DNA from: a virus
DNA length: 39,819 nucleotides
IMG/VR virus record: IMGVR_UViG_3300037343_000304
Coordinates: 1-39,819 of that record
Reading direction: 5' to 3' (one strand)
Positions within the stretch are counted from its first letter, which is position 1; the number at the start of each line of letters is the position of its first letter. The notes beneath the pieces were generated by a model, which made no database searches, was not told the DNA's origin, and saw only the letters and a list, made by a program, of their open reading frames with translations. Shown here piece by piece: positions 3,349 to 31,762 of this stretch. Both the position numbers and the translations under genes were made by a program.

Positions 3349-5339
3349 ACGGCACCGCCATACTGCCCATAGCCCCGAGCACCATCGTAGAGCGAACCGG
3401 AATTGGCATCACGCAAGCGCCGCTCAAGCTCATCAAGGATCGACTGAGCCGATAGACCAGCGGCATTGATCTGAATGTGGTTGGTGACCGAACCGGAACC
3501 ACCGTTCATGCCACCGAAAGCCGCCTTGATGTTGGCGCGCGCATCGGCCGCCAGCGAAGCGATGCGCTCCGTCGCGCGATTGTTTGCAATAAATCCAGAC
3601 TGGCTTGGATACATCAGCTCCGGCCCGCCCTCTCCTACCACCAAACCACCCGCCCGGAACGATCCACCAACCGCACGCATCTGTGGCCGGTGCATCGGAT
3701 GACCAGGTGGAAAAGGATTTTCAGCAGATCCAAGCGAAGGCCCATCGTTGCCACCAATGCCGACAGCACTCAGCGCCGATCCGGCTTTGCCTGAAACCCA
3801 TTTCAGAGCATCGACGACCGGCCTGATTTTCTCCATGACCCGATCAAAACTCGAACCGATCCAGTTGATAACCGTGCCGAGCGTTTCTCTCAGGGACTGC
3901 CACGCCTGTTTGATCGGCTCGATAGGCCCGGACAATCCCGAGAAAAAGCGTTTGAGCCCATCCATCTGCTTGCTAAACCAAGGTCCGATCGACTCCCAAT
4001 TCTTGTAGATCAGCAGCGCGCCGCCCGCGATGGCAGCAATTGCGATACCAACCGGATTCGCAAGCAACGCTAGGCCGATCGCCTTGATACCAGCTGCGAC
4101 AATGGGAAGCGCCGGACCCAATGCCCACAAGGCCGTGCCGAGCCTAACGACACTCAGACCAAATCTGGCAACACTCACAATCGCCTTACTGGCCATAAGC
4201 GTGCCCAGAACCATCCCGAAGTTTTCCCAACCGCCGACCATATCAGCGACCTTCGAAACCACGCTACCCACAGTGACCGCAATTTTACTCAAACCAGATG
4301 CGAGAGAACCGACAATCGGGATAACACGCTCGAGGCTCAGGACTGCCTGCTCGGCGAAAGACTTGATGTCTTCCCGGTTTGTTTTGGCCCAGGTGGTGAA
4401 GGTTTCCATAGCCCGCTGAACGACAGGAATGAACTCAGCGCCGATCACGTTCTTGAGCCCCTTCACGGTCAGCTGCGCATCGAGAAGGCGATCCTGAAAT
4501 ACCTCAGCGCCACGCGCGGTTTTTTCCGTGAGAACATAGCCCGTATCGCTGCCCGCCTGCATAAGATCTTCGAGCCCGGCCCTTCCGTCGCGCAGCATAA
4601 TGATCATACCCATACCAGCACGCGAAAAGAGATCAGCCGAAAGCGCCGCACGCTCGGCAGGGTTTTTCACATCCTTGAACTTCTCAGCAATTTCGAGCAG
4701 CGCATCCTCGGGTTTCATCTCGATCAAATCGCTGACATTGAGCCCCAGCTCTTTTATGGCATCCGCAGCCGGACCAGTGCCGTCCTTGGCTTCGCCCAGA
4801 CGTTTGACGAAAGCCCCCATCGAAGAATCGAATGTAGCGATAGGAACGCCAGACCGCTCGGCCGCGTAACGCAGCTGCTGAAACGCCTCGATGCCGATGC
4901 CCAGCTTATCGGCCGTTTTTGCAACATCGTCTCCAAGTGCGGCCGTCGAGCTCGCCAAGGTAAAGATCGCGGTACCGACCAAGCCAATGGCGACCCCAGC
5001 GTTTCGCGCCACCCGCGTGAGGTCGCCCGTCATGCGGCGAAAATCCTGACCCACGCGCGCCGAGGCCTGCGCCGCGCGCGTCCAAGCTGCCTGTTTGCGT
5101 CTCAGAGTATCAAGCTGACGCCCGAGCTGCTCATATTCCTGATCCAGATCCGCGACCGAACGGCCCTGCGCCTCAAGGACCTTTCGCTGCTTGGACATTT
5201 CCTTCTGACGGTCCGTGATCGTTTTGATCTCGTTGCCAACGCCCTCGAGGCCCGAGCGCAGAATGCCGATGTTCTTCTTTACCGACCGCTCAAGAACGGA
5301 GCCGATCTGGACCGTGGCATTAAGCCGTTGATTTGCCAT
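3345..5339 (-). CDS. T: tail tape measure protein
   Basis: At 664 residues this is the longest tail-operon protein apart from the fibre-region one. Its layout is typical of tape measures. There is a charged coiled-coil N-terminal part (about residues 25-95). A first hydrophobic segment follows near residues 115-135. A long amphipathic body comes next. A large hydrophobic block near residues 400-450 (ending AIAGGALLIYKNW) precedes a glycine-rich C-terminus. Tape measures set tail length inside the tube and are ejected at infection. Its start overlaps the end of the frameshifted chaperone product, as in P2 and lambda. It is short for a tape measure, suggesting a fairly short tail. Confidence 0.88.
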   Translation of the reverse strand: MANQRLNATVQIGSVLERSVKKNIGILRSGLEGVGNEIKTITDRQKEMSKQRKVLEAQGRSVADLDQEYEQLGRQLDTLRRKQAAWTRAAQASARVGQDFRRMTGDLTRVARNAGVAIGLVGTAIFTLASSTAALGDDVAKTADKLGIGIEAFQQLRYAAERSGVPIATFDSSMGAFVKRLGEAKDGTGPAADAIKELGLNVSDLIEMKPEDALLEIAEKFKDVKNPAERAALSADLFSRAGMGMIIMLRDGRAGLEDLMQAGSDTGYVLTEKTARGAEVFQDRLLDAQLTVKGLKNVIGAEFIPVVQRAMETFTTWAKTNREDIKSFAEQAVLSLERVIPIVGSLASGLSKIAVTVGSVVSKVADMVGGWENFGMVLGTLMASKAIVSVARFGLSVVRLGTALWALGPALPIVAAGIKAIGLALLANPVGIAIAAIAGGALLIYKNWESIGPWFSKQMDGLKRFFSGLSGPIEPIKQAWQSLRETLGTVINWIGSSFDRVMEKIRPVVDALKWVSGKAGSALSAVGIGGNDGPSLGSAENPFPPGHPMHRPQMRAVGGSFRAGGLVVGEGGPELMYPSQSGFIANNRATERIASLAADARANIKAAFGGMNGGSGSVTNHIQINAAGLSAQSILDELERRLRDANSGSLYDGARGYGQYGGAV

Positions 5340-5762
5340 TGTTCAGGCCCTCAATCCACCAGAGAAAGCGCGACGTGCGCATGCCCAAGATTTCAGCTGC
5401 GCTCCACCCGGTATGGTTTGCCAGCAGCAACACCCCCGATCGGATCACTGCTGGCTCCAGGGTCAGCCGTAAAAAAAACCGAGCGCCGCCTGCAGCCGCA
5501 CAAAATCCCGCATTTTCAAAAGGCGAAGGTCAGCCGGAGCCACCTCCGCCAAGTTTGCGATCAGCGCCACCTCGGCCTCAGCATTACTGCCGATCTTTTG
5601 CGACGTCAGCTGATCATCAAGAGACGGCTCACGCAGCTTCAGGCTGCTGACTTTTGCGCCCGCGACATCGAGGCCGCGAACCAAAGTGACCGTAAGGGAA
5701 CCGTCCGGACCTTCTTTGATGAAAGCCGGATAGATCGATTCAGTTTCTGTTTTCTGTGCCAC
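5320..5762 (-). CDS. frameshifted tail chaperone E+E' (predicted -1 frameshift)
   Basis: If ribosomes slip back one base on the T run at 5472-5478, translation continues about 50 codons in the -1 frame to a TAA at 5320-5322, for a product of about 147 residues. The extension reads as a real protein (LLANHTGWSAAEILGMRTSR is in it) and lies where P2 E' and lambda T lie. It ends just inside the tape measure gene, whose ATG is at 5339. The slippery heptamer is T TTT TTT in the zero frame. The extension has no start codon of its own with a ribosome-binding site, so frameshifting is the simplest way to express it. Confidence 0.72.
5463..5762 (-). CDS. E: tail assembly chaperone (P2 gpE-like)
   Basis: This 99-residue product is encoded between the tube and tape measure genes. 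It resembles the gpE/Mu gp41 chaperone family: an N-terminal beta-rich half (GSLTVTLVRGLDVAGAKVS) and a helical C-terminus (DLRLLKMRDFVRLQAALGFF). Such proteins coat the tape measure during tail assembly. The frame ends GGT TTT TTT TAC GGC TGA, placing a run of eight T residues two codons before the stop. That is where a programmed -1 frameshift would produce the longer form. Confidence 0.85.
   Translation of the reverse strand: MAQKTETESIYPAFIKEGPDGSLTVTLVRGLDVAGAKVSSLKLREPSLDDQLTSQKIGSNAEAEVALIANLAEVAPADLRLLKMRDFVRLQAALGFFYG
5472..5478 (-). promoter_or_regulatory. slippery heptamer T TTT TTT for -1 frameshift
   Basis: Eight consecutive T residues on the coding strand (5471-5478) place the heptamer T TTT TTT in the X XXY YYZ register of the gpE frame. 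The zero-frame stop follows two codons later. Conserved frameshifting between the two chaperone frames is known in P2, lambda and many other long-tailed phages. Confidence 0.72.
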
Positions 5763-5774
5763 GATTAAGCCTCC

Positions 5775-6281
5775 TTAAAGACCGAGAGCCGCGCGCCGCG
5801 CCGCCAGTTGATCAACCCCGTTGACGATACGCGTCATGTTCGGGATATCGATCTCATGAATTTGACGGCCGTCGAGGTCTTCAGAGAAGAAATCGCACCG
5901 AACCGCGACAGTGAGAGGTGCCTGCTGCCCAGGCGACCACGTCCCCCGCTCGACACGGAACACCTTACCGCGCAAGCGGTGAACCGATGCCTTGACCAGA
6001 CCATCATAACTCTCGATTGCGCCACGCGCCGTCAAGACAACCTGCTCGCCCTCGGTGACGCCCCACATTTGCAGGACGTGAAAATCATAGGCTGACAGGA
6101 CGAAGGTGGCCTCGAGCGCCTCCATGCCCATGTCCAGCCCGATCGGCGCATCCATGCCACCGGCACGGAAATCCTCGAGCTGAACCGCCAAGGTGGGAGC
6201 GGTATATTCAGAGACATTGCCAGCATAGCCCCGACCGTCAACGAACAGGTTAAAGTTTTTCAGAATATCACGAGCAGCCAT
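5775..6281 (-). CDS. FII: tail tube protein (P2 gpFII-like)
   Basis: This 168-residue protein matches the FII major tail tube family. It begins DILKNFNLFVDGRGYAGN and contains the characteristic GLDMGMEALEATF segment. It forms the stacked hexameric rings of the tube inside the contractile sheath. It starts at the stop of the sheath gene (shared base 6281), so sheath and tube are probably translated together. Length and position are normal for the family. Confidence 0.93.
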   Translation of the reverse strand: MAARDILKNFNLFVDGRGYAGNVSEYTAPTLAVQLEDFRAGGMDAPIGLDMGMEALEATFVLSAYDFHVLQMWGVTEGEQVVLTARGAIESYDGLVKASVHRLRGKVFRVERGTWSPGQQAPLTVAVRCDFFSEDLDGRQIHEIDIPNMTRIVNGVDQLAARRAALGL

Positions 6282-7468
6282 TAGGACAGGGCCTCCGAAA
6301 TGTAGGTATCAACCAGGTGAGAGCGGAACGTGATGTGCTCCGCAGGATAGGGCGGAGTGAACTCCAGATTGAAGTACACCTTACCCTCGATGATGGACGC
6401 CGAAGTGTTTAAATCCGGATCAGGGAAGCACCGGCCGCCCAAAAGCGCACCAAGCTGAACGAGCGTAGCAATATAGCCATTCACCCCGTCAGAGACATCC
6501 TCAAGATAGGTTTTGCAGATATTGCGATCGACAGCCCACAGGTGAGCGCGCTGCAGACTTTCATGCAGGATATCGGCCGTCCGACGAACAGAGATGAACT
6601 GGAATTTAGGATCAGCGGTAGGGACCCGATTACCCCACAAACGAAACCCATCCTGGCGGATGATGGTCGCCACGTTGTTCTCGTTAAGCAGGTTCGCGCG
6701 AGACGCGGAATCGCCAAGTTTGAAATCGACAGGACGCGCCGTGCCGATAATGCCGAAAATGCCCTTGTTGGAAGGGGAGTGCCAGAACCCGAGATCATTG
6801 TCGGTGCGAGCGATCACACCAGCAACCCGAGCCGAACTTGGCTGCGTGATGACCGCGCCATCAGCGCCCAATATCTTCACCCACGGATCCACAACATAAA
6901 CCCGGCCAGATGTACCAAAATCAGCGGCATGGGTCTGCGCGGCCGCGTCTGTGGTGCTTGGCCCATCCGCAACGATCACAGCGCGAAGCCGGTCCGCGAT
7001 GCCCTCGAGCTCCGCGATGACCGGATTTGCGGCATCTTCCGGACGCTGATGTGTCCAGCCAGGTGCGATCAGGATGCGCGGCGCGAAACCGACAACAGAT
7101 TCCGCGCCCGCCAAAGCATGCACGCCCTCATAGGCACCGGTACCCGCGTCAACGCCACCAATGATATTCACCAGAGTGGCAGCTTCGTCCGCGCCAACAT
7201 CGACCCGAACCACAATAACAACCGCGCCGATCTGGTCGAAGATGCCGTCGAGAGCACCCGGCAGCGTGCCCTGGCCATCGCCAGTCGTGTCCAGCTTGGC
7301 AGCCTCTAGGCGACTGCCCGCGATCAAGACAGGAGTGTTCAGAGGGAAGAACGTATCATCGGCATCAGGCGCAGTGCCCACAATGCCGATCACGCCAGAC
7401 CGAACAGTGCGGATTGGCCGCGAGCCCGTGTCCACCTCGATGATTTCAACGCCGTGCAAAAAAGCCAT
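6281..7468 (-). CDS. FI: contractile tail sheath protein (P2 gpFI-like)
   Basis: This 395-residue protein has the expected size and features of P2-type sheath proteins. The N-terminus is HGVEIIEVDTGSRPIRTV. A domain with GIVGTAPDADDTFFPLNTPV follows. The conserved C-terminal part includes LWGNRVPTADP, ISVRRTADILHESLQ and a final YFNLEFTPPYPAEHI-type segment. The sheath surrounds the tube and contracts at injection, so the phage is a myovirus. It is the first gene of the FI-FII-E-T-U-X-D unit. A 115-bp gap with promoter-like elements precedes it. Confidence 0.95.
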   Translation of the reverse strand: MAFLHGVEIIEVDTGSRPIRTVRSGVIGIVGTAPDADDTFFPLNTPVLIAGSRLEAAKLDTTGDGQGTLPGALDGIFDQIGAVVIVVRVDVGADEAATLVNIIGGVDAGTGAYEGVHALAGAESVVGFAPRILIAPGWTHQRPEDAANPVIAELEGIADRLRAVIVADGPSTTDAAAQTHAADFGTSGRVYVVDPWVKILGADGAVITQPSSARVAGVIARTDNDLGFWHSPSNKGIFGIIGTARPVDFKLGDSASRANLLNENNVATIIRQDGFRLWGNRVPTADPKFQFISVRRTADILHESLQRAHLWAVDRNICKTYLEDVSDGVNGYIATLVQLGALLGGRCFPDPDLNTSASIIEGKVYFNLEFTPPYPAEHITFRSHLVDTYISEALS

Positions 7469-7489
7469 AGGTCCCGCCTCAAAAAATGT

Positions 7490-7550
7490 TGTCCATATTT
7501 GAGACGATAATCGCCCAACGACCGCCCGGTTTCCTCTGGCGGTTTGCCCG
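7490..7550 (-). promoter_or_regulatory. candidate late promoter/activator region for the sheath operon
   Basis: The 115-bp gap before the sheath gene contains the 18-bp repeat word at 7533-7550. This sits within a 33-bp block (7518-7550) that matches 15327-15359 at 32 of 33 positions. In the direction of transcription come a near-palindrome (ACCGGGCGGT), the shared octamer TATCGTCT (7509-7502), a possible -10 GATTAT at 7512-7507, and then 7505-7490. That last piece matches 14 of 16 bases of the operator at 35014-35036. The order looks like an activated late promoter. The -10 is a guess and no transcript data are implied. Confidence 0.5.
7533..7550 (+). repeat. 18-bp word, copy 1 (intergenic, before sheath gene)
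   Basis: Exact copy of CCTCTGGCGGTTTGCCCG, non-coding, at the border between the conserved tail genes and the variable fibre region. Confidence 0.95.
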
Positions 7551-7583
7551 CGTTAACCCCAACGCCAAAAAGAGACTCTGCGT

Positions 7584-7928
7584 CTAGGTGGGGTTATCAG
7601 CTGACCATCTAGTAACTACTTCGGTTACAAAGAAAGTAATACGCGATGTTATTCTGTCTGTCGTGCGAGCTGTTGTTCTATCCGCGCCTTTTCCACCTAT
7701 CTCTGTTGATACGCTAGTCCCAAAGTAGGTGGTGTAAGATGTGGAACGGCTTGTCGTTCTAGAACTAAGCGACGAGTCGCTCTTGTTGTAGAAGTCGGAA
7801 AAAGAAATAGCACCAGACGACGGAAGACCCGGCGCGGTGTAATACTCGGACAACGAGTGAGACCCAGTGCCGTTATACTCTGCCGATATTTCTACCAGAG
7901 AAACAGCACCGCTTGATTTTATAGTCAA
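7584..7928 (-). CDS. putative tail fibre/tip protein with Ser-Thr-Arg repeats
   Basis: This is a 114-residue protein in two parts. Residues 1-50 carry a motif seen at the start of many marine-phage structural proteins (SLSEYY ... SSGAISFSDFYN). Residues 51-105 are low-complexity, built from repeated Ser-Thr-Arg triplets (SSRTTSRSTSYTT, later DRTTARTTDRITSRITFF). It starts at TTG 7928 with a good GAGGA site seven bases upstream, a few bases after the glycosyltransferase stop. The fibre-region position and repeat composition suggest a surface or receptor-contact role. The Ser/Thr density would also make it a natural target for modification by the two enzymes encoded upstream. No enzymatic domain is visible. 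Confidence 0.65.
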   Translation of the reverse strand: MTIKSSGAVSLVEISAEYNGTGSHSLSEYYTAPGLPSSGAISFSDFYNKSDSSLSSRTTSRSTSYTTYFGTSVSTEIGGKGADRTTARTTDRITSRITFFVTEVVTRWSADNPT

Positions 7929-7938
7929 TTTCTATTCC

Positions 7939-8811
7939 TCACTTATAAGCGTTTTTCATTTGGTGTCTGATCTTGTGAATATACTCCAAGTATAACACGA
8001 TCCGATCCTGCCAATCGTTATGAATTTCAGGATGGACCATACCCGCTCTTGCATCAGAAAAAATCTTATTGACCGAAATCTTAGGTGACAGTGTCGAAAA
8101 AAGATGTTCGCTGATGTGAGCGAAAGACCCTTCCATACGATTCCCAAACATAGACAACGGACGAACAGCCTTTCCAGAACATGCGGCGTACAGAGCCGTT
8201 TCGCTGGAGTGAGTGGTGTAGACAGTGTTTACTTGCTGCATAATACCATACACATCTTCGTCGGGGTGTAAGACGTTTGCGTTTGGGAGGAGGAGGCTTT
8301 TAATCATTAAAAGGTCGTTTTCAGTGGTGAGCGGGTGAGGCTTAATAGCCGCCAAGCTGCCGTACTCTTCAACAATCCAGCGCAGCTTCGCGATATCAAC
8401 TGTTTTTGATATGCAATTCGAACCCGTTAAAACAGCAAGGCATTTGTGCTTCATATCCGAAAAGACTTTTCTGCCTGCATATTTATTGGCACCGCCATCT
8501 AAAGCATTGATTGCAAAATACTCCGCGTAGTCAAACCCGTCTGGGGTACCGCTACAAAGAGCCTCTTGTATTTGATACCTACGCATCTCATTTTGCAAAG
8601 GAGCCATTGAAAAGAACCCAGCATACAACGAATAGTTTATCGACCAAAACTGAATAGGTTCTTGGCATGTCCTGTCAAAGCAAGGTTTGGTCGGATAAGA
8701 CTGCATGACATCCAGAAAGAATTTTTCCACAGGCCGATGCACATTTAAGGCATCGTTCCATTTAAGATCATCCCCGATCTGCGACGCCCCAAACATTGTA
8801 TCGTCAAACAA
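7939..8811 (-). CDS. capsule-type glycosyltransferase-like protein
   Basis: This 290-residue protein resembles the C-terminal lobe of capsular polysaccharide synthesis proteins (KpsS/LipB-like, Kdo-transferase type). Visible features are AAIKPHPLTTENDL (the KPHP nucleotide-sugar segment), then DEDVYGIMQQVNTVYTTHS, then SSETALYAACSGKAV. The pattern of conserved KPHP followed by a Ser/Thr-rich loop and a Glu-containing helix fits this fold. Codon use is more AT-rich than in the surrounding tail genes, suggesting recent acquisition. It overlaps the GNAT gene by 8 bp if TTG 8811 is used; ATG 8796 is the alternative. It could glycosylate the fibre or alter the host surface polysaccharide. The sequence does not decide between these. 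Confidence 0.65.
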   Translation of the reverse strand: MFDDTMFGASQIGDDLKWNDALNVHRPVEKFFLDVMQSYPTKPCFDRTCQEPIQFWSINYSLYAGFFSMAPLQNEMRRYQIQEALCSGTPDGFDYAEYFAINALDGGANKYAGRKVFSDMKHKCLAVLTGSNCISKTVDIAKLRWIVEEYGSLAAIKPHPLTTENDLLMIKSLLLPNANVLHPDEDVYGIMQQVNTVYTTHSSETALYAACSGKAVRPLSMFGNRMEGSFAHISEHLFSTLSPKISVNKIFSDARAGMVHPEIHNDWQDRIVLYLEYIHKIRHQMKNAYK

Positions 8812-9346
8812 GGGGTAACAAATTTATTTGATGGCCGCCTTCGTCGGTTTCGTCCAGATCAACCCAAGCTGCCCCGCGTGTTTTCTTTGCAAACTCTAGG
8901 ACACTGGGACTCATATATCCAAAGTCTAAAGCAGCTGTGTATCCAAGCAAAACAGCGTCTCTTCGAAGGGTTAAAGAAAGTTCCTTCGCCACACCACGGC
9001 CACGATATTTCTCTGACACTATCAAGATGCGGGTGGTGTACGCCTTTTCCGGATCAAACCCTGCATCAACAATCTTCTTTAAGAGATCGAAGTTGTTTTT
9101 TACTCCCCTGCAGGGTGCAGACGGCCCCCACAAAATCAACCCGACAGTATCGTCTCCGCTTGTTGCCAGTGTCACATTGTGCTCCAAACCCTTGTCCATC
9201 CCAAGGTTAAACAAGTGTGAAATAGACTCCTTTGAGTTTGAAGAAACGTCGTTATTGTTCATCATCAAGCTGTGCAGTTTGATAAGCTCGGGCATTTTTA
9301 GATCGGCAAATACTTTTGTTTCATATGAAAGGGATAGTGTTTCCAT
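8804..9346 (-). CDS. GNAT-family N-acetyltransferase
   Basis: This 180-residue protein has the GNAT acetyl-CoA signature in its second half: RILIVSEKYRGRGVAKEL, with R-G-x-G-x-A forming the pyrophosphate loop after a beta strand. Next comes an amphipathic helix and SVLEFAKKTRG, the usual late helix of the fold. The protein is AT-richer than the tail genes. It starts at the stop of the fibre gene (shared base 9346) and overlaps the glycosyltransferase, so the two enzymes are co-expressed with the fibre. The acceptor substrate cannot be told from sequence. A fibre, a host surface sugar or a sugar-nucleotide precursor are all possible. Confidence 0.75.
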   Translation of the reverse strand: METLSLSYETKVFADLKMPELIKLHSLMMNNNDVSSNSKESISHLFNLGMDKGLEHNVTLATSGDDTVGLILWGPSAPCRGVKNNFDLLKKIVDAGFDPEKAYTTRILIVSEKYRGRGVAKELSLTLRRDAVLLGYTAALDFGYMSPSVLEFAKKTRGAAWVDLDETDEGGHQINLLPLV

Positions 9347-10359
9347 TATATTGACCCAAACGCTGTAATGTCGCCGGTCGCGGTGATGTTACCGGCCGAA
9401 TTAACCCTCAATTTATTTACGCCATTGTGCTCAAAGATCAGGGAAGTGGCTGTAGATCTGACAGTCCACAGGTTCCCCAACCCAATAGTTCCCGTAAGAG
9501 AAGGCCCTGCGCTCGGAGCCTTAGTGTTCGAAACCAGCGCCAATGCATCCAGGGCATCTTGCAGATCAGACACCCCAGAAATCAAATGAGAGTGTTGAAC
9601 CGGCGCAAAGTTATCCGGATCAAAGACGGCCGCCGCCTCTGCAAAACCCTCGGCTGCTTGCGCCGCATCAGACGCGACCCCGGAAGATACAAAGGCCGCA
9701 TCCCGAGCATCTTCTGCACCCCCCCGCGCGAGCCCCGCCGCATTAACAGCGCCCAGAGCTGCATCCCGGTATCCAAGTGCAGTGGTGGCAGAAGCCAAGA
9801 TCACATCCCGAACCGACTGGCCCTCACTCAAAAGCGCATATTGCGCGACCGTCGAACCGGCCAACGCACCGATAACCCAATCAGAATGGGGACCCGCCGC
9901 GCCAACAACTGCCACGACCTGGCAGCGATAAATGCCCGAGACGCTGTCATAAGCGATCGAGCGCGCAACTGCATAATCAGCAGCAGTGCTGGAACGGGTC
10001 AAAGCCGTGAACGGCGAAGGCGTAAACAGACGCCGCTCGACAGGATCAGACACCTCGAACTCTAGGATGTTACCAATTGCGAGCGAAGCCTCGGTAGACG
10101 AGGTGGCGAGCAAAAACCCGCGCTCAGTCAGCGTGAACACATCCTCGATCGCCGGGGTCAAAATATCGTTGATCCGATCGAGAGTGATCCCCTGAAGCCC
10201 GACAAGCGTCTGCTCAACTGTGGCCTGCTGCTCCTGCAGAGGCTTTAGACGAACATCGATCGCCTGCAGTAACCGGCGCAGGAACGCTAGATCAAAGCGC
10301 TCCTGCCCGTCGATATTGAGCGCACTAGTCAGTGGCTGGCGAAACGGACTTAATGTCAT
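9346..10359 (-). CDS. tail fibre-like protein
   Basis: This 337-residue protein has a helical, coiled-coil-like N-terminal part (about residues 20-75), a middle domain, and an alanine-rich helical stretch (about residues 185-255). A C-terminal region containing VQHSHLISGVSDLQDAL follows and ends GNITATGDITAFGS. The H-S-H...I motif and short terminal repeat are typical of phage fibre shafts and tips. It is the most likely receptor-binding fibre, attached to the baseplate through proteins encoded upstream. It overlaps the small upstream gene by 35 bp. Confidence 0.72.
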   Translation of the reverse strand: MTLSPFRQPLTSALNIDGQERFDLAFLRRLLQAIDVRLKPLQEQQATVEQTLVGLQGITLDRINDILTPAIEDVFTLTERGFLLATSSTEASLAIGNILEFEVSDPVERRLFTPSPFTALTRSSTAADYAVARSIAYDSVSGIYRCQVVAVVGAAGPHSDWVIGALAGSTVAQYALLSEGQSVRDVILASATTALGYRDAALGAVNAAGLARGGAEDARDAAFVSSGVASDAAQAAEGFAEAAAVFDPDNFAPVQHSHLISGVSDLQDALDALALVSNTKAPSAGPSLTGTIGLGNLWTVRSTATSLIFEHNGVNKLRVNSAGNITATGDITAFGSI

Positions 10360-10498
10360 CAGCGTGCTCCTTAATTACCCAGCCCTTCATCGTGACATCG
10401 GCACCAGGCCGCAAAAGCGTCCGACCAACCCGAACAGGGCGAAGGAGCACCACACGATAAAGATCATCGTTTTTAACATTTGAAATCTTGGTCGACAT
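10325..10498 (-). CDS. small tail-region protein, 57 residues
   Basis: This small open frame starts ATG 10498 with AAAGGA ten bases upstream, right after the stop of the large upstream gene, and overlaps the fibre gene start. Its product is compact: MSTKISNVKNDDLYRVVLLR at the start and a middle LLRPGADVTMKGWV that reads like a small beta-barrel. Position, ribosome-binding site and coding character support it as real. Its role is unknown. A cap or chaperone for the fibre is a guess from position only. Confidence 0.7.
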   Translation of the reverse strand: MSTKISNVKNDDLYRVVLLRPVRVGRTLLRPGADVTMKGWVIKEHADDIKSVSPATD

Positions 10499-10509
10499 TT
10501 TCTTATCCT

Positions 10510-12798
10510 TTACGCAAATGCCACGTAGCCAAGCCGGGCCACGTGATCAGCAAATAGGCTGTTATCAGTTTCGCCTACCTCCTTGATTTTGAAAGAAGTG
10601 ATATCCGGAACCGTGAACGAGAGCTCACGCACAAGGGCATTCGGATCATCCCGAGGCACAGAATCCACCGCCGCAGCCGCAGTGAGCTCGGTCGCAAAAC
10701 CAGCGCCGTGCAGCAAGGTCACCGCGCTGGTATTGTGATCACCGTCCCAATTCTCATAGCGGACCCGGACAGTCACGGTCGTAACCGCCGCAGGCATGGT
10801 GCGCGCGATCGATATCAGCGTGCGATCCAAAGACGGACGACTGAGCTCGATGTTTGACCGCGCGGCCGTCAGCCCCAGAGCTGGCATGATATCCTTGGTG
10901 CCGATGAACACAGCGCGCAGCCTGGCGAATTCAGGTCTGCTCGCCAGAATCGCATCATCTTCAGAGAGGGATCGCCATACACCGGCAACAAGAACCTGGA
11001 ATTCCAGACGCGTGCCATCATAGGTAGTGGTGTCGGCATTAATATCGATCATATCGATACCGCCCCCCAGACTGAGCGGAGCAAGCTCCACCTGAATGAT
11101 CGGCGACTCAAACTCAGCAAAGAACGCCTCGAAAGCAAGGTCGACAGACGGATCGCCAGCAACCACCTCACCGTCCTGCACATAGAAGATCGCACCCGAC
11201 GCCAACTTGTTTCCCGAGACCGTCGCAAGGAAATGCGCACCGGCCGAGAGCACCACCAGGCTGTATCGGCGACCTTTGAGCAAAGGCAGCGCACCAAAGG
11301 CCACCGACGTCGCGGTCTCCCCGTTCGGATCGCTGGCAATGTCCGCGACCGCAATCGTTTTGCGCGCGATCGTTCGAGACAGGTCAAAGGCACCCGCCCG
11401 CGTTTCGCAGATCAGCACCTGGACCTCACCAGCTACCGCCTTGCGTGTGAAAAACAGATTGATGCTGGAGAGATACCCGTCGCTACCTTGCAGCAGCGTC
11501 TGACCCACGATCGAGCCGGACACCGTCTCCGTGGTCACAACCCGATCGAAAAACGGCTCCTGAATATCCACCTCGGTGAACTTCCGAACACGAACAACGT
11601 GTGTCAGTCCGTGCCGCCCGCCGCCCTGATAGATATTGCCGGTAGTGTTCTCGACCTCGAACGTCTCGCCCCCGCGACGGAAAATACCCGCCTGCTCGTC
11701 ATAACGGCCGGACTGCCAGAACTGCGCGTTTGTGCAGATGCGCTGGCTTTCATGGTAGCGGATGACCGTCCGCGTCCGCGTTAGCTCCCGAATCTCGGTC
11801 GTTTCGACAGTTGTGTCCGACAGGGAATACTCGCCGTCGCGCCCCCGCACAGAAAACAGCTTCTGCTCGGAGAATTTCGGAACCGCCATGTTCCCATGCA
11901 CCGTCACCTTGGAATCGAGCGGGTTATTCAAGGTGACCGCCAAGGACGCAGTAGCAGCATATGGATAGCGCCCGCCCTCAAGTATCTTGGCCGAGAAATC
12001 AGAATGGTCGGAATCGACCTCGTCAGCGGTTAAAAAGTGATCCGTGCCCCAGGCGGTATAATCATCCGGCAGATCAACCTGCTCTTTGACATCTGCAAGA
12101 TCGAACGCCAGATCCATGACGAAGCGCACATCCGCCTTGCCCCGGACCGCATCGCCCAGCGCCGCGATATTCGACTTCGCGGTGTCGAGCTCTGGACCGA
12201 TCGCGGTCAGGCGATTGTTTATGACCGTGATCGCCTCCTTATTTTTGCGCACCGAAGGTAACTGGTTGGCAGTCAGCGGCCGGATGCTCTCGATCCCCGC
12301 TGGCGTCAGAACCACCTCCGCGACCGCTACAAAATCCGAGGCAATGGCAGGCGCGACAGGCGTGGCATTTTCCTGCCCATAGACGGCATCAAGATACGCC
12401 ACCCGACGACTCTCCGTCGCAATTTCCTGCCCCTCGATTTGCCGAGTGGCAGCATCCGTCAGGATGGAGCGGGTCTGCAAATCTGTGTCCACCAGATTCC
12501 CATAAGCGACAATGATGGCAATCCGCTTTGCAACAGCCGGAAGGTTCGAGAGCATATCGATTGCAACGCCACCCTCGTCAGACCGAAAGAAAACCTCGCC
12601 GTTTTTATACATCCGGCCAGAGCCGACGGAGACCTCGGCTGGCGCTGCCTGAACCGCAGGAAAACCCGCGTATTTGACGGTATGATCGATCGCGTCCCGG
12701 TGCAGGACGTCAAACGATGCGCGAGGGAAGGAGCCTAGATTATTGAAATCCTCGGTCGTGACCTTCTGGTTTGGCGTGATGTTAACTTTGCGCTGCAT
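10510..12798 (-). CDS. large baseplate/fibre-attachment protein
   Basis: This 762-residue structural protein lies between gpI and the fibre gene. It begins MQRKVNITPNQKVTTEDFNN and is mainly beta-rich, with a short coiled segment around residues 190-235. There is no signal peptide or enzyme motif. Proteins of this kind in alphaproteobacterial phages and prophages link fibres to the baseplate. A DUF4815-like relationship is possible, but I cannot confirm it. The position gpI - this gene - small protein - fibre matches the place of P2 fibre gene H. Confidence 0.6.
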   Translation of the reverse strand: MQRKVNITPNQKVTTEDFNNLGSFPRASFDVLHRDAIDHTVKYAGFPAVQAAPAEVSVGSGRMYKNGEVFFRSDEGGVAIDMLSNLPAVAKRIAIIVAYGNLVDTDLQTRSILTDAATRQIEGQEIATESRRVAYLDAVYGQENATPVAPAIASDFVAVAEVVLTPAGIESIRPLTANQLPSVRKNKEAITVINNRLTAIGPELDTAKSNIAALGDAVRGKADVRFVMDLAFDLADVKEQVDLPDDYTAWGTDHFLTADEVDSDHSDFSAKILEGGRYPYAATASLAVTLNNPLDSKVTVHGNMAVPKFSEQKLFSVRGRDGEYSLSDTTVETTEIRELTRTRTVIRYHESQRICTNAQFWQSGRYDEQAGIFRRGGETFEVENTTGNIYQGGGRHGLTHVVRVRKFTEVDIQEPFFDRVVTTETVSGSIVGQTLLQGSDGYLSSINLFFTRKAVAGEVQVLICETRAGAFDLSRTIARKTIAVADIASDPNGETATSVAFGALPLLKGRRYSLVVLSAGAHFLATVSGNKLASGAIFYVQDGEVVAGDPSVDLAFEAFFAEFESPIIQVELAPLSLGGGIDMIDINADTTTYDGTRLEFQVLVAGVWRSLSEDDAILASRPEFARLRAVFIGTKDIMPALGLTAARSNIELSRPSLDRTLISIARTMPAAVTTVTVRVRYENWDGDHNTSAVTLLHGAGFATELTAAAAVDSVPRDDPNALVRELSFTVPDITSFKIKEVGETDNSLFADHVARLGYVAFA

Positions 12799-16277: not shown

Positions 16278-19016
16278 TCAGGTGTTCACTGATTGTCGAA
16301 TTTCTGTCAGCACGCGAAGGCTATCATAGATTTTTTCTCGAGCAACGGTAATGCCAAAAGCATTGAGAACAACTTCATCAAACGCGATTCGGTCGTCTTG
16401 ATCTAGTTCGTCAGCAACTTCCAAGATGGTCCTTGCCGTCAGGGGCCCAAAGGCCGCCACGATGCTGTTTCTTGCGTCAGTGTTAAGCGCAGCCGGATCA
16501 AGCACATGCAAAGAACTCTCAATCCGGTCTTTGTTAAGATCCAGAACCCCAAGGCCACGCCCAAACCCGATAGCTTCAATCATCAAGATTCCGAGCGTAC
16601 TGTTGAGCAGCGCGTGCAATAGATCCGCATCAGTCCCTTCTTTCGCGTTCAGGGCGATAAGGCGTTGATCGACAAATGCTGGAGGGTCGAGGCGACCAAC
16701 GTAAAGCCGTGATCCGAACCCCATTGGTACGACGAATTCCGTCAGCCTATCGGCTCGCATTTCGTACCAGTGCCCTCCTAAAGGAGCGGTCTTCGCAAGC
16801 ACTTCGGTAAGTGGCTCATTCTTACCGTTTCGCACGTTTTCAAAACGCTTGATCCACGCAAGAGCACCGGTGTCACCTCGATCTGTTAGATCGTCGATCG
16901 TGCGGGAGCAACTGAAGGCATCCTTACCAGCATTTCCTACCAATCTGTCGAGACCTTTCGGCGATCGAAGTACCGGTGCGATATATTCAACCTCAATCCC
17001 GTGGTTTGGCGCTGGGTAAAACAGATCGTTCCACCCACGCCGTTCACCCCGCCGAATATCGAGAAGGCTACGCGCTGGAACGAGGGGCAAGTCGAGCATC
17101 CAGTCAACGCCAACAAACTGTGCGCTACCCGCAAGACCCATCGGGCGAAGTCGTTCAATACTCTCTCGGTTCGTGCGGTGAACTGACAACACATCCTCTT
17201 GAGACATCCCTTGATCGATTAACGCCGCAACATTTTGGGCGTGTTCATCATCGGCGAGGACCTCGATCGGCTGCTTGAGAACAACGAAGTCTGTCCCGTG
17301 ATCGGGATCAGCACCGTTTGCTGGCTTTTGCAGCACTAGGATATTTGTAACAACATCAGCGTTTGAGAACCACCGCCCTGCGCCGGACGTCACAACAGTT
17401 CTCAACTCAAAAAAGTCCTTTAGGCGCTCGTAGAAGGCTGCGCCCCAAGCCGTACCGAGCCACGCGTTCGTAATGATGATGCCCATGCGGCCACCCGGCT
17501 CTAGAAGATCATAAAGTGCGAAAGGCAGATAGGCAGCGACATCCGCTCTTCCCGGTAGTGTTTCGCCTGTCTCATTTTCCAGCCAAGCGTTTACAGTTTG
17601 AATGGCGTTTCCGTACGTTGCCCTGCCTTCTTGGGCGACGAACGGCAGATTGCTTGCTATCGCACGGAAAGTTCCCAGTGCCTCAGTGTGCTCCGTCCCA
17701 TCGCTCGGATCACGATAGCTCACAGCCAAATCCGGTGCGAGGGTGAAAGCATCAAGGGAGAATAAGCGCAGCGGTTGCCGCATTAACAATGGCGAGGTCA
17801 ATGAAAAGGTTGCCAGCTGTACCGCCGGTTTGTCGAGATCGTTGCCGCAAATCTGGGACGCGGCATCTGCAGGGGCGATGGCTCCATGCAGTTTCATATC
17901 AAGCGCCGCCCTTACTATTGTTCCACTGCCACAGCACGGATCGAGAATACGGTCGTTCAAATCATCGAGGCAGAGTCTCACGAGTAAATTGGCGAGTGGA
18001 GAGGGCGTCGTATATTGGCCACGGGCCTTGCGGTCCGAAACCGCTGCCGAAGTTTCTAAAACCGTTGAAAGCTGTGCTTGATCAACGGTACCGAGGCGTA
18101 GATCAGCTAGGAGGCGATTAAACTCGCAAAGCTGTCGCCATGCTTCTGGTGGTATCACATTGAGAGCCATCGCATCGCAAAAAACGGTCCAAAAATTGCA
18201 CGCCCTAGTTATCTCGTCGAACGTTGCGAGGGCACCGTCAGGACCGCTATTTTCATTGATCCCAGTAACAATGGCAGCACGGTCGTCGCGTTCGCGCAGG
18301 ACATGCGCAAATAAGAATTTACCCATCCAATTGATGAGGTTCGCCCTTGCCAGTGCGAGGTGAGGGTCAGTACCGTCATAATCTTGCTGGTTCCGACTCC
18401 ACCACAGGGAAATCTGTGAGCGTAAATCCCGGCTTTTCTGAGATTCAGCTTTGATTGCTTCAGCGACAAGCTGCGTGTTTTGCAGCACAAGCGTGGTTAG
18501 TCCGCCACTCCGGTAAGCTTCGATGAACTGACGGCCTTCCAAATCACCCGATGCAAGAAGCGCGTTCACCGTCTGAAGGATTTCAGCACCAACAGCCTCC
18601 CAACGTGCGCGATGCCGCTGCACATCTGCACGTGTTTTGATATCGCTCAACCCGTCCCATTCCGTATGCAAAATAAAGACGTCATCTTGGTCAAGCACGT
18701 AGAGGCGAGCGTAACGCACGTTCCAAAGCACAAAGCTGTCTAAGCCAAGTGAGCGCGCCTTTTCCTCTGCATTGTCAAAAAATTCGGCATCATCGATGGA
18801 AGTATTGGGAAGTTTCAGCTCCCAACCTTGCAGGATGCGCGCGGCATCTCGATCACCAAATAGCAGAACATCTGGAAACATGCTTCCGCCATTAACGGCA
18901 ATCGTCTGCTCTCCACTGACATGGCGAACAGATTGGTGCCCCGCGTTTGCTATACCCTGAAGATGTCCGATAAGGTCGATCGCCCAAGAGCGCTCGTTGT
19001 AATTCGCTTTTGCCAC
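16278..19016 (-). CDS. type IIG-like restriction-modification protein
   Basis: This 912-residue single-chain enzyme has a nuclease-like N-terminus. There, PDVLLFGDRD followed by WELKLPN fits a PD-(D/E)xK site (D in PDV, E and K in ELK) at about residues 48-70. The middle carries adenine-methyltransferase motifs: motif I LDPCCGSGTIVRAAL near residue 360 and a motif IV variant IASNLPFV near residue 455. A C-terminal region of about 300 residues is where target recognition would lie. This is the Eco57I/Mme-type layout in which one protein cuts and methylates. The gene starts at the stop of the separate methyltransferase (shared base 19016), so the two form one unit. Base composition is lower in GC than the tail genes. 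It probably restricts competing phages in the lysogen. Confidence 0.78.
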   Translation of the reverse strand: MAKANYNERSWAIDLIGHLQGIANAGHQSVRHVSGEQTIAVNGGSMFPDVLLFGDRDAARILQGWELKLPNTSIDDAEFFDNAEEKARSLGLDSFVLWNVRYARLYVLDQDDVFILHTEWDGLSDIKTRADVQRHRARWEAVGAEILQTVNALLASGDLEGRQFIEAYRSGGLTTLVLQNTQLVAEAIKAESQKSRDLRSQISLWWSRNQQDYDGTDPHLALARANLINWMGKFLFAHVLRERDDRAAIVTGINENSGPDGALATFDEITRACNFWTVFCDAMALNVIPPEAWRQLCEFNRLLADLRLGTVDQAQLSTVLETSAAVSDRKARGQYTTPSPLANLLVRLCLDDLNDRILDPCCGSGTIVRAALDMKLHGAIAPADAASQICGNDLDKPAVQLATFSLTSPLLMRQPLRLFSLDAFTLAPDLAVSYRDPSDGTEHTEALGTFRAIASNLPFVAQEGRATYGNAIQTVNAWLENETGETLPGRADVAAYLPFALYDLLEPGGRMGIIITNAWLGTAWGAAFYERLKDFFELRTVVTSGAGRWFSNADVVTNILVLQKPANGADPDHGTDFVVLKQPIEVLADDEHAQNVAALIDQGMSQEDVLSVHRTNRESIERLRPMGLAGSAQFVGVDWMLDLPLVPARSLLDIRRGERRGWNDLFYPAPNHGIEVEYIAPVLRSPKGLDRLVGNAGKDAFSCSRTIDDLTDRGDTGALAWIKRFENVRNGKNEPLTEVLAKTAPLGGHWYEMRADRLTEFVVPMGFGSRLYVGRLDPPAFVDQRLIALNAKEGTDADLLHALLNSTLGILMIEAIGFGRGLGVLDLNKDRIESSLHVLDPAALNTDARNSIVAAFGPLTARTILEVADELDQDDRIAFDEVVLNAFGITVAREKIYDSLRVLTEIRQSVNT

Positions 19017-19924
19017 TATTGGGTCGCCTCTAGCTTCATGCCCCCGATAACCTCATCAACGTCTATCAAGCCGCGCCCCTTCTGCTTTCCCGTCTTGCCC
19101 GCGGCCTCAATGCTTGCAGACAAAGGCGGGAGATTCACGAGCTCCAGTTTTTCGACCTCCAATAGCCGTTGGCGTGCGACATCCATGTAGTCTATCGGTT
19201 CGTTCTTGAATTGACGCGACTCTTCATTTTTTTCGATGCCTATATAGCGACGACCCTCAATGGCAGCTGCCACCAGAAAGCTCCCGCTTCCAAAAGCATT
19301 GTCCAGTACGACATCGCCGGGACCAGTAAACATCTGGATAAGGTATCGGCCTAGCGCAACTGGCTTTTGAGTTGGGTGCCAGACCCGGCGACCAGCCTCG
19401 CTCTCGGCTGTTTTGCAATATAGCGCATCTGTAGGAAACCTTCCGCCCTCGCTTTTAACCTGAACGGGACGAAAATCACCATAACTGCCAGTATACTGTG
19501 CTTTTCGCCGCCCTTTGTCATAAGGGTCTCCGGAAGACATTACCGGTCGATAGACAGGTTGTTGCTTGTAGAAAATGCAGATGTCTTCGTGCTGGCGGAG
19601 CGGCTGGCGGCGAGCATTCAGGAAATTTGTCGGTTTACTCTTTACCCAAACAAATTTGTATTTGAACCATTTTTCTTTGCTCAACATTAGCTTAGCAGTA
19701 AAAAGCCCTTGGGAGCTTAGCGCAATGACGCCGCGTGGCTTGATAATGCGCTCGTAGTGCGCCCAAAGCTGATCAAGTGGGATTATGCTATCCCACTTAT
19801 TCTGTGTAGTTCCGTATGGAAGATCACATAAAATCATGTCGACGGACGCATCTTCAACGTTCGACATCAGATCTAAACAATCTCCTTCATGGATGGTGTT
19901 CGGCAATAAATTCACGATAAGCAC
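19016..19924 (-). CDS. beta-class DNA methyltransferase
   Basis: This 302-residue methyltransferase has motifs in beta-class order: catalytic CDLPYGTTQNKWD near residue 35 (D-L-P-Y, an N6-adenine or N4-cytosine type), then WHPTQKPVALGRYLIQMF, then VVLDNAFGSGSFLVAA, the AdoMet-binding loop near residue 215. The length fits a single-domain enzyme. It is co-transcribed with the type IIG-like gene and probably protects the second strand of an asymmetric target or acts as companion methylase. The start appears to be GTG 19924; the next in-frame alternatives are internal. Confidence 0.85.
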   Translation of the reverse strand: MLIVNLLPNTIHEGDCLDLMSNVEDASVDMILCDLPYGTTQNKWDSIIPLDQLWAHYERIIKPRGVIALSSQGLFTAKLMLSKEKWFKYKFVWVKSKPTNFLNARRQPLRQHEDICIFYKQQPVYRPVMSSGDPYDKGRRKAQYTGSYGDFRPVQVKSEGGRFPTDALYCKTAESEAGRRVWHPTQKPVALGRYLIQMFTGPGDVVLDNAFGSGSFLVAAAIEGRRYIGIEKNEESRQFKNEPIDYMDVARQRLLEVEKLELVNLPPLSASIEAAGKTGKQKGRGLIDVDEVIGGMKLEATQ

Positions 19925-22406: not shown

Positions 22407-24491
22407 TTAGCTGGCGTCAGCGCCGTAGCAGAAGCTCTCAACGCGGCGCAAAAGGATATCGACGTCTTGCATGGTCACAATGCGCAGACGGCCCTTCTTG
22501 GAATTGGAGTAGGGATCGACCGTGATATCGAGACCGCCCCACATACCCACAATCACATCGGCCCAATTACCAAAGAACAAATCACCAGCGACGATCTGAT
22601 TTGTGACCTCGGTACCATAGCCGTTCACCGTGTTTCCGTTTTCCCAAATCGGCATGCCATTGGAGCTCTCAAAACGCTCCGTCGTTTTGAAGTGGCCGCG
22701 CATTCCAGACCCCATAGCGTAGGCCATAGAATTGACATCCGCATTATCGCCAGCGATCGCACTCTCCATCTGCACAACCTCAGCAAAGGTGGGCAGCGCC
22801 GAGCCACCACCAGAGGACGCGCCTGCAAAATCAACCGCATTGACGCCGGTGTAATTCTTGATGCCCTTTGGCTGGTTATTTGAGCCGGTGCCGTAGAAGC
22901 CTGCTGTGTCGATGGTCAGAGCCAAAGCCGTGGCCAGATCCCGACGAACAAGCGCCTCCATGTCCATAGAGCTCTGCTTCAACAGCTTGCGCGTGATTTC
23001 AGAGAAAGCAGCAACGGTCTTTGGAGTCATGGACGACTGCCCGAGCTCGAGACCGTCCTCAGTCGCGTCCTCATCTTCACCAATCCAGTAGCCGGATGCA
23101 CCCGACGCCTGCAGCGGAATGTCGACGTTGCCCGAAAGCCCAGACAGCGGAGTGGCAAGGCGCATCAGGACCGCGCGATTACGCAGCATTTCGATGAAGG
23201 ACTGAGACAGCAGCGTAGTGGCGATGGCATTACCACCCGTGTCACCGGCAGCGTCACCGGTTACCGAAGTGTTGACGGCACGCGTGAGAACTTCTGGCGG
23301 AACCATGATCCCCTCGGCAGAGCGCCCCATTGCTTGAGCCGCCGCCTCCGACGCCTCGAATTCAAACGCGGCCGCCTCTTGCGCGCGCCGGTTTGTCGGC
23401 TCGGACAGCGCGCGGATGGCGCGGATGAACGAAAAGGAATCACGCTCTTTATCTGTCAAGCCGACCTGATGGCGATCAGACAGCGGCGATGCGGCACGGC
23501 GGCCGCCGTCAACGTGATCCAGCAGAGCACTCTGGAACTCGTCCGCGCCTTTGCCGTCTTTCACAAAATCGCGTGCCAGATCGTCGGCACCATATTTCTC
23601 ACCCATGTCCATAATAGCGCGCACACGAGCGCGCTCGGTCTCCGAACCGGCTGCCTGCAGCTGGCGTGTGTTTTCGCCTGCCTTTTCAAGCGTTTCGAGA
23701 ACTTCCGTGATGTTGCCTTCACCGTCGACCAAGGCACGAACGAGGTTGCCCGCGCCGTCCCGCAAAATCTTTTCCATAGCGTCACTCCGTTTTTGCGACT
23801 GCGCGGCACGACCATCGTCCGCATTTGTATCTTCGTTATGAACAACAGGAGCGCCTGAATCCTCTGGCGGTTTGCCCGTGTCCATTTCACGCCCGACACC
23901 AACAGATGTGTCAGCCGCGACAGCAACGATCGAAACCTCGAAGGGCTCCCAATCAAGCACAGTGATCAAATCGGCCTGACCAGACCGCTCCTCGATCAAA
24001 ATCTTGTGAATCATATACCCGACAGAAACATGGCGACGGATGCCGTCCACAACGTCCTGGAATACTTCATCGGCGCGAGCACCGCGCCCGAACTTCACGA
24101 CCGCACGGCCGCGCCTGTCGCTGTCGATCTGAGCGCTTAAAACCACCCCAATTTGATCGTCACGATCGTGGTTAACCAAAAGTGCTGCGCCATCTTCCAT
24201 GCGGCCCATCCGAACCGACCCCAGCTCATGCGACAGCACCTCGACGCCAAAATACCGATCGACCTCAATCTCGGACGAAAACGCCAGCTCAACAGTCCGC
24301 GCCTCTTCATTGATCTCGCGCACCTCGGCCAAACGCGACAGCCCGCGCCGCCCTCCTTCGCCTTGAGCGTTCATCTGCTCGACAGTGATAGATCGCGTAA
24401 GACAGCGACCGACCAGGTCAGCCGCCTTAAGCACCCTCGTCCCCGTTGGCTTGATTTCCGGCACCTTTACCGGCTGATTTTTCTGATCCAT
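22407..24491 (-). CDS. prohead protease-major capsid protein fusion
   Basis: This 694-residue single chain has two parts. Residues 1-210 match the U35 prohead protease, with catalytic-type His in LLVNHDRDDQIG and Ser in IRRHVSVGYMIHK. Residues from about 330 to the end match an HK97-fold major capsid protein (TLLSQSFIEMLRNRAVLMRL, FYGTGSNNQPKGIKN, VDPYSNSKKGRLRI). A helical scaffold-like delta region (about 235-330) joins them. The protease would cut itself away during head maturation. The hinge at residues 205-211 is encoded by one copy of the 18-bp word. ATG 24491 has a very strong GGAGGGG site, although it overlaps the portal gene by 65 bp. Confidence 0.9.
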   Translation of the reverse strand: MDQKNQPVKVPEIKPTGTRVLKAADLVGRCLTRSITVEQMNAQGEGGRRGLSRLAEVREINEEARTVELAFSSEIEVDRYFGVEVLSHELGSVRMGRMEDGAALLVNHDRDDQIGVVLSAQIDSDRRGRAVVKFGRGARADEVFQDVVDGIRRHVSVGYMIHKILIEERSGQADLITVLDWEPFEVSIVAVAADTSVGVGREMDTGKPPEDSGAPVVHNEDTNADDGRAAQSQKRSDAMEKILRDGAGNLVRALVDGEGNITEVLETLEKAGENTRQLQAAGSETERARVRAIMDMGEKYGADDLARDFVKDGKGADEFQSALLDHVDGGRRAASPLSDRHQVGLTDKERDSFSFIRAIRALSEPTNRRAQEAAAFEFEASEAAAQAMGRSAEGIMVPPEVLTRAVNTSVTGDAAGDTGGNAIATTLLSQSFIEMLRNRAVLMRLATPLSGLSGNVDIPLQASGASGYWIGEDEDATEDGLELGQSSMTPKTVAAFSEITRKLLKQSSMDMEALVRRDLATALALTIDTAGFYGTGSNNQPKGIKNYTGVNAVDFAGASSGGGSALPTFAEVVQMESAIAGDNADVNSMAYAMGSGMRGHFKTTERFESSNGMPIWENGNTVNGYGTEVTNQIVAGDLFFGNWADVIVGMWGGLDITVDPYSNSKKGRLRIVTMQDVDILLRRVESFCYGADAS
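23861..23878 (+). repeat. 18-bp word, copy 3 (protease/capsid hinge)
   Basis: Exact copy of CCTCTGGCGGTTTGCCCG inside the fusion gene. It is read from the minus strand as Gly-Lys-Pro-Pro-Glu between the protease and the scaffold-like region. Confidence 0.95.
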
Positions 24492-29766: not shown

Positions 29767-29974
29767 GCAAAGCCCACCAATTAAATAGGCGCCGCAAAAA
29801 GTAAGACCGGACAAGACTGATCACAGTATAGACAGCGCCGATTTGCGCATGCTGCCTTGGGCTAGGGAAAAACCCAAACAGCGGAAACACAACGATGTTG
29901 ACCGCGACAGCAATCGAGTAGCCGAGCGCGATGTTGGCCACCGCCTCTATGAATGAACCCCGCCGCGACTGCAC
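29759..29974 (-). CDS. small phage membrane protein (DUF7220-like)
   Basis: This 71-residue protein has two hydrophobic segments (ALGYSIAVAVNIVVFPLFGF and IGAVYTVISLVRSYFLRRLF). The pattern AIGYTV-like ... IYTVISLVRSY-LRR-F is recurrent in small membrane proteins of tailed phages placed near terminase genes. It begins GTG at the last base of the methyltransferase stop, with GGAGGA just upstream. Its role is unknown. Confidence 0.75.
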   Translation of the reverse strand: MQSRRGSFIEAVANIALGYSIAVAVNIVVFPLFGFFPSPRQHAQIGAVYTVISLVRSYFLRRLFNWWALRD

Positions 29975-31383: not shown

Positions 31384-31762
31384 AAAACCTCCGAAACGAA
31401 ACGAAATCAAAAAAACTGGGCACGCACAATTGAATTTTTGCGAGTACAAACACCCTCATACCCCACCCCCCCCCAGAAGGACCCAAAGATTCCGGAGCGA
31501 CCAGCTGCTGCGGTACGTCGAACGCCAAGCGAAAGCCGGGACACGCAGCGACGTACACATCGTAGGCCAGACCAATCTCCGATCGAGTGCGCGCAGTGTC
31601 AGCGCGCGACCGCGACGGCAACGACTGGCCCCATGCCTCACACCGCGCCCGCTCAGTCTCGGTAGCCGCGCTGGTCGGATTGCTCGTCGCGCAGGCTGCC
31701 CCGAGCAGCATCAACCCTACGCCGCAGATCAGCCGCCCTGCCTTCGTCAAACTCTCGCCCAT
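31376..31762 (-). CDS. Rz1-like outer-membrane lipoprotein (spanin) candidate
   Basis: This 128-residue frame overlaps the neighbouring Rz-like gene by 110 bp in another frame. It has a lipoprotein-type signal (LICGVGLMLLGAACATS), with Cys near residue 24 as the probable lipid-modified residue. The following part is rich in Thr, Ala and Arg. A conserved-looking YDVYVAACPGFRL segment suggests a folded domain. An overlap of Rz1 within Rz is the classic arrangement. A run of nine G residues (coding strand, 31474-31466) lies near codon 99. The last 30 codons after it look non-proteinaceous, so the true C-terminus may be reached by a shift in frame or be dispensable. Confidence 0.5.
   Translation of the reverse strand: MGESLTKAGRLICGVGLMLLGAACATSNPTSAATETERARCEAWGQSLPSRSRADTARTRSEIGLAYDVYVAACPGFRLAFDVPQQLVAPESLGPSGGGWGMRVFVLAKIQLCVPSFFDFVSFRRFYA

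Follow-up and report, generated by a model that had tools for sequence, protein, structure and literature searches.

A predicted KpsC-like glycosyltransferase gene and a Thr/Ser-repeat gene paired in an exchangeable phage tail-tip cassette

Why would a phage encode a glycosyltransferase-like and an acetyltransferase-like protein among its tail genes, and on what would such enzymes act? This question is raised by a viral DNA stretch of 39,819 nucleotides (IMG/VR record IMGVR_UViG_3300037343_000304; hereafter the window), in which an initial annotation had placed a capsule-synthesis-type glycosyltransferase, a GNAT enzyme and a Ser/Thr/Arg-repeat protein (here GT, GNAT and STR) behind the tail fibre gene. 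Two readings had been offered, namely decoration of the virion during late expression or remodelling of the host capsule or O-antigen. Here we followed the locus from its gene order and boundaries to the predicted enzyme, its neighbour and the recurrence of both in other phages.

Gene order and boundaries of the tail-tip cassette

All three open reading frames were recovered at the positions and on the strand initially given. Read along the minus strand, the fibre gene is followed by GNAT, GT, STR and the tail sheath gene (Table 1). Base 9346 is common to the fibre stop codon and the GNAT start, the GNAT and GT frames share 8 nt, and STR begins 10 nt past the GT stop, its TTG codon being preceded by the ribosome-binding sequence GAGGA. 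The proposed co-orientation hence applies to all four genes, but the proposed overlap ends at GT and does not extend to STR. The cassette genes are AT-richer than their surroundings, as had been noted, with a G+C content of 0.472 for STR, 0.443 for GT and 0.453 for GNAT versus 0.585 for the sheath gene, 0.580 for the gene of the 762-aa tail protein and 0.592 for the N-terminal part of the fibre gene.

Table 1. Features of the tail-tip region, in window coordinates.
Feature	Position	Strand	Description
762-aa tail protein (fib762)	10510..12798	-	Precedes the fibre gene; phrog_17470, E 1e-135; 91% identical in L002
Tail fibre	9346..10359	-	337 aa; assigned by PHROG match and comparison with L002
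GNAT-like acetyltransferase	8804..9346	-	180 aa; sub-threshold Pfam GNAT match; accessory, outside the conserved GT/STR pair
GT	7939..8811	-	290 aa; predicted KpsC-like GT-B glycosyltransferase, phrog_26179 family; start TTG 8811 or ATG 8796
STR (Ser/Thr/Arg-repeat protein)	7584..7928	-	114-aa tail-tip-type protein; TTG start, GAGGA upstream; proposed glycan acceptor
Tail sheath	6281..7468	-	After the cassette; Pfam Phage_sheath_1, phrog_23
Swapped tail-tip cassette	7573..9597	-	Fibre C-terminus, GNAT, GT and STR; blastn junctions against L002

Comparison with the closest relative of the window phage, L002 (90% identity in the sheath and 91% in the 762-aa tail protein), located the limits of this island. 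Blastn aligned the two sequences in two blocks, window positions 5001-7572 (84.7%) and 9598-11596 (86.6%), and between the homologous junctions L002 has a fibre tip of another kind together with a tail-fibre-assembly-like and a DUF1353-like gene. Residues 1-260 of the fibre are 90% identical to those of the L002 fibre and the remainder is unrelated, so that the C-terminal tip is foreign from about position 9598 downwards. The boundaries of the swap enclose exactly the tip genes, and the interval 7573-9597 is an exchangeable tail-tip cassette that includes the fibre C-terminus. All 50 contigs of sheath relatives lack GT. An apparent GT match in L003 (16380-16781) was discarded, as the open reading frame does not resemble GT and L003 gives no match to the family profile. 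A genome-contig scan with fib762 gave no match that would point to a host.

Elsewhere in the window, a stretch of lower G+C content at 16278-19924 within the late tail operon encodes a 912-aa protein with a full-length match to Type IIG restriction-methyltransferases (PADLOC, E 1e-239), alongside a 302-aa DNA methyltransferase. A third methyltransferase of the phage is a 491-aa fusion of ParB-N and DNA methylase domains (29974-31449), and a single 694-aa open reading frame (22407-24491) contains both prohead protease (Peptidase_S78) and major capsid (Phage_capsid) domains.

For the GNAT product, matches to Pfam stayed below the gathering scores (15.2 bits versus 27 and 14.4 versus 20.7; E 0.028), and a single-sequence fold model reached a pLDDT of 35. 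The protein has an R-G-x-G motif, and its segment YRGRGVAKEL aligns with the acetyl-CoA motif R/Q-x-x-G-x-G/A of a GNAT protein above threshold. Its closest phage relative (L280:3767-4273; pairwise E 2e-8), encoded behind the tail assembly chaperone of roseophage DSS3_VP1, itself exceeds the Pfam GNAT cut-offs. The assignment as a GNAT enzyme is thus upheld by the motif and by a clear GNAT relative, but not by a Pfam match above threshold.

A predicted GT-B enzyme resembling retaining Kdo transferases

Single-protein scans of viral and genome contigs returned no close relatives of GT or GNAT from the window, nor did a search of phage records at E 0.01, but a relaxed limit gave informative ones. 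GT matches phrog_26179 (E 4e-16) over residues 69-287, the profile covering most of its length. Pfam made no glycosyltransferase call on the window protein itself, which has no PF05159 match. Capsule_synth is the best Pfam match of some relatives, matched weakly by 6 of 17 members, and among the matches listed the best relative scores 18.4 bits for PF05159 against a cut-off of 20. An AlphaFold2 model built from 17 sequences (pLDDT 82.8, pTM 0.81) was compared with the PDB using Foldseek, and the top six matches were all retaining Kdo transferases (KrkA, KpsC; E 9e-5 to 1e-3), at modest TM-scores of 0.36-0.43. In a sequence search against the PDB the sole match was KpsC, with an E-value of 0.76 that is not significant alone. 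The description of GT as a capsule-synthesis-type glycosyltransferase thus draws on its PHROG family, its Capsule_synth-matching relatives and its predicted fold, but finds no Pfam call on the protein itself.

The residues that are invariant in the family, D46, K110-Y111, G130-x-N132, K157-x-H159-P160 and E204, are all present in the window protein, and the KxHP and KY motifs occur in 191-192 of 192 relatives. In retaining Kdo transferases the KxHP motif binds CMP (PMC10148158, PMC12887879), and in KpsC Lys133-Tyr134 contacts O5, O7 and O8 of Kdo (PMC10148158). The corresponding (K/R)xHP motif of GT reads K157-P-H159-P160 and is kept in 191 of the 192 relatives. A Y/F-D pair at positions 45-46 recalls the YE motif that provides the general base in KrkA and KpsS1 (PMC12887879). 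The family lacks QxxxD, the nucleophile motif of the retaining enzymes (PMC12887879); in 190 of 192 relatives the corresponding position between KY and HP is occupied by LPG[ST]N, an assignment drawn from motif spacing and not from superposition.

The likeness to KpsC (GT107), WbbB (GT99) and KrkA (GT140) consists of the best PDB fold match, the (K/R)xHP motif and the KY pair. GT differs from these retaining Kdo transferases in carrying LPG[ST]N instead of QxxxD, in a similarity below the Pfam cut-off, and in its partner, which is a protein where theirs is a lipid or polysaccharide pathway. Membership of KpsC was rejected on the missing QxxxD motif, and since KxHP and KY are kept we term the protein KpsC-like and not a KpsC. 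The absence of QxxxD suggests that donor and mechanism may differ from those of the KpsC type. From the fold model and the motifs we infer a GT-B enzyme that would use a CMP-linked ulosonic acid, possibly by a different, inverting mechanism. The gene is under purifying selection, with dN/dS of 0.05-0.17 in pairs with pS above 0.5.

The repeat protein and its linkage to GT

STR consists of an N-terminal domain (residues 1-47; SSGAVSL..YY..PSSGAISFSDFY) and a Ser/Thr/Arg tetrad-repeat region (residues 48-114). Threonines recur at a spacing of 4 residues (z = 4.4; the value was reached in 0 of 500 shuffles) and the Thr/Ser codons are mixed. The repeats described in the initial annotation are hence real, and the significant spacing together with the mixed codons suggests that they were selected as protein and are not recent DNA duplications. 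The window protein matches phrog_30374 weakly (E 0.0044), shares the SGxIS...YY...PTSGxIS domain and the Thr/Ser tetrads of that family type, and is 34-42% identical to the repeat proteins of the Vibrio phages KVP40, D484, F86 and D479 in an alignment of the N-terminal domain. At 114 residues it is short for a family that extends to about 1970 aa.

The same N-terminal domain begins Gly-rich proteins encoded directly after the tail fibres of Rhizobium and Ochrobactrum phages and therefore probably docks an exchangeable tip. The domain alone did not hold up as the link to GT, as no GT appears in the regions read for LG08 and ORM_20, whose Gly-rich tip proteins contain it. In diverged STR pairs Thr is the best-kept residue (identical in 0.75-0.93), followed by aromatics (0.53-0.83); Ser shows no particular conservation (0.37-0.77). 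With dN/dS of 0.18-0.34 in pairs with pS above 0.5, the alignments indicate purifying selection in which Thr is best conserved. This pattern fits glycan acceptors but also a Thr-ladder beta structure, two readings that sequence alone does not separate.

To follow the linkage from STR to GT we used two viral-contig scans with the STR repeat codon pattern only. They returned 29 distinct contigs with a genuine STR, a number that includes near-identical assemblies. GT is also present in 28 of the 29 and lies 26-142 nt downstream of STR on the same strand wherever both ends were in hand; the one exception is a 16.7-kb fragment (L249). The first of the repeat patterns produced mostly chance matches, three of 120 being genuine. 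S/T-rich matches in L102, L126, L149 and L195, which have no GT, were judged low-complexity or non-tail, and L228 was dropped as an exception, as GT is found elsewhere on the same contig.

In the opposite direction, two scans by GT alone yielded 160 sampled loci, and an STR open reading frame lies directly upstream of GT in 142 of them (67/80 and 75/80). Across the GT family STR adjoins GT in 172 of 192 loci and in 27 of 31 clusters at 70% identity; control loci contained no STR-like frame among 6036 open reading frames (1.06 Mb). Loci without STR are DLP_6, a subclade in which GT stands beside the terminase small subunit and, by a strict criterion, Cr30, whose GT adjoins a Thr/Tyr-rich protein without significant periodicity. 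Phages of T7-like, T4-like and P2-like types carry the pair (Percyvirus/Lullwatervirus, Cr30, KVP40-like phages and the P2-like window), among them the Caulobacter podoviruses BL199 and Lullwater, where GT relatives stand beside Ser/Thr-repeat proteins encoded at L082:5018-5671 and L090:3348-3995, and KVP40, where one lies close to KVP40.0254. In the lytic T7-like and T4-like phages it is located within structural or lysis gene blocks. The window departs from the other loci in gene order, as its GT comes before STR. As judged from these neighbourhoods, GT and STR form a near-obligate pair of neighbouring genes that many unrelated phages share. No GNAT gene was seen beside the pairs whose neighbours were read, and GNAT is for this reason regarded as accessory.

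Several further observations were made at these loci. The repeat gene of the Vibrio phages D484, F86 and D479 had gone unannotated; repeat frames absent from the deposited annotation are found at L087 3207-3740, L088 2846-3403 and L091 2891-3403. Small coiled-coil-like proteins recur beside GT (L084 4451-4669, L087 3569-3952, L089 1664-1837, L227 2074-2343, L265 7106-7363 and, in L328, just upstream of GT) and may form a third part of the module. A gene of about 210-250 aa without a Pfam match often follows GT (L147 7042-7749, L235 314-1069, L084 5500-6132, L089 2696-3448) and could encode another sugar enzyme. Downstream of GT the KVP40-like phages L084, L087, L088 and L091 carry QueC-like, nicotinamide phosphoribosyltransferase and radical-SAM genes, and in L228 two repeat-protein stretches flank a methyltransferase-like gene (130-1230) that has a weak match to intein splicing.

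Proposed function of the pair and comparison with known systems

We favour, with moderate confidence, a model in which STR is a tip protein that is glycosylated by a dedicated GT encoded in the same exchangeable tail-tip cassette. The core of the cassette would be two genes, one for a Thr/Ser tetrapeptide-repeat tail protein and one for a KpsC-like GT-B glycosyltransferase. The attachment site of STR would be the distal fibre or the baseplate, and during late expression and assembly GT would O-glycosylate the Thr/Ser hydroxyls of its repeats, most likely with an ulosonic acid (Kdo or a related sugar) taken from a host CMP-sugar. The product would be a mucin-like, negatively charged, protease-resistant tip that may take part in, or shield, host adsorption, and the GNAT product might act as an accessory modifier of the tip or its glycan. 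As unrelated phages inherit GT and the repeat protein together, STR is the likely acceptor, and not primarily the fibre. Late virion decoration as initially suggested thus gains support from gene linkage, but with the adjacent repeat protein, and not the fibre, as the likely primary acceptor and with GNAT outside the pair.

A different target is conceivable. GT, with GNAT, might modify host LPS, O-antigen or capsule, thereby excluding other phages or stopping progeny from rebinding debris, and STR would be its neighbour through a common receptor-interaction module. The fold relatives KpsC, WbbB and KrkA do act on surface polysaccharides (PMC10148158, PMC12887879) and the window phage is temperate, with an integrase at 38620-39660. 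Against this stand the location of GT, which belongs to the tail operon and is some 29 kb away from the integrase, and the frequency with which STR accompanies GT, since a surface-acting enzyme would not be expected to require a Thr-repeat partner. Lytic T7-like and T4-like phages, moreover, carry the pair in structural and lysis blocks, which makes host-surface conversion less likely and weakens the alternative initially offered; we consider it improbable. Lysogenic serotype-conversion (gtr) cassettes differ from the locus in position, as GT does not lie beside the integrase or attachment site, and no GtrA flippase or GtrB partner gene was seen among the proteins scanned, a set that took in part of the small ORFs.

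It is likewise unlikely that the substrate of the GT-like protein is the neighbouring fibre or some other virion protein in place of STR, or that the protein serves as a non-catalytic chaperone for STR. Several loci do have a fibre as a further neighbour, and the QxxxD motif is missing, but the fibres vary between loci where STR is the constant partner, and the conservation of all predicted binding residues, together with the low dN/dS, argues for an active enzyme. Least probable in our view is that STR is a Thr-ladder or beta-structured adhesin without glycan, linked to GT as one of two independently acting, co-inherited tail-tip genes. The period-4 threonines and conserved aromatics fit a beta repeat, but the linkage holds over 27 clusters, several phage types and STR lengths from 114 to about 1970 aa, and independent genes should separate more often.

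Homologues of both genes, close together and in the same orientation, are annotated in KVP40 as hypothetical only (KVP40.0254 and KVP40.0256; phrog_30374 and phrog_30602); in contrast to the window, STR there precedes GT and a small coiled-coil gene lies between them. Distal tip adhesins of the gp38 type in T4-like phages are encoded behind the fibre gene. STR resembles them in position and in an N-terminal domain with which Gly-rich proteins of LG08 and ORM_20 begin as well, but has Thr/Ser tetrads in place of Gly-rich loops and a GT partner. Glycosylation of phage virion proteins is already known from mycobacteriophages, whose own glycosyltransferases modify virion proteins (Freeman et al. 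2023, cited in PMC12619734). As far as that account goes (PMC12619734), the glycans are located on capsid and tail-tube C-termini, unlike the repeat-rich tip protein with a dedicated neighbour enzyme of another family proposed here. In chlorovirus PBCV-1 the GT-B enzyme A075L also acts on the virus's own structural protein, but it builds an N-glycan core on the capsid protein of a eukaryotic virus, belongs to GT114 and is unrelated to the GT family of the window (PMC11571054). We found no description of the GT/STR pair in the open-access literature.

More tentatively, the pair could represent a widespread, undescribed system in which Thr/Ser tetrapeptide-repeat tail proteins of up to about 2000 residues are O-glycosylated by dedicated enzymes using host CMP-ulosonic acid, giving LPS-mimicking, mucin-like tips that are exchanged as cassettes. 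If the model is correct, a large group of mainly environmental phages would make their own glycoprotein tail tips, with enzyme and substrate encoded side by side, which would make the acceptor and the enzyme of phage protein glycosylation predictable as a pair. The function-unknown PHROG families 26179 and 30602 and the structural family 30374 would gain a function that is directly testable in Caulobacter laboratory phages, and models of adsorption would have to consider a tip that carries sugars and does not only bind them.
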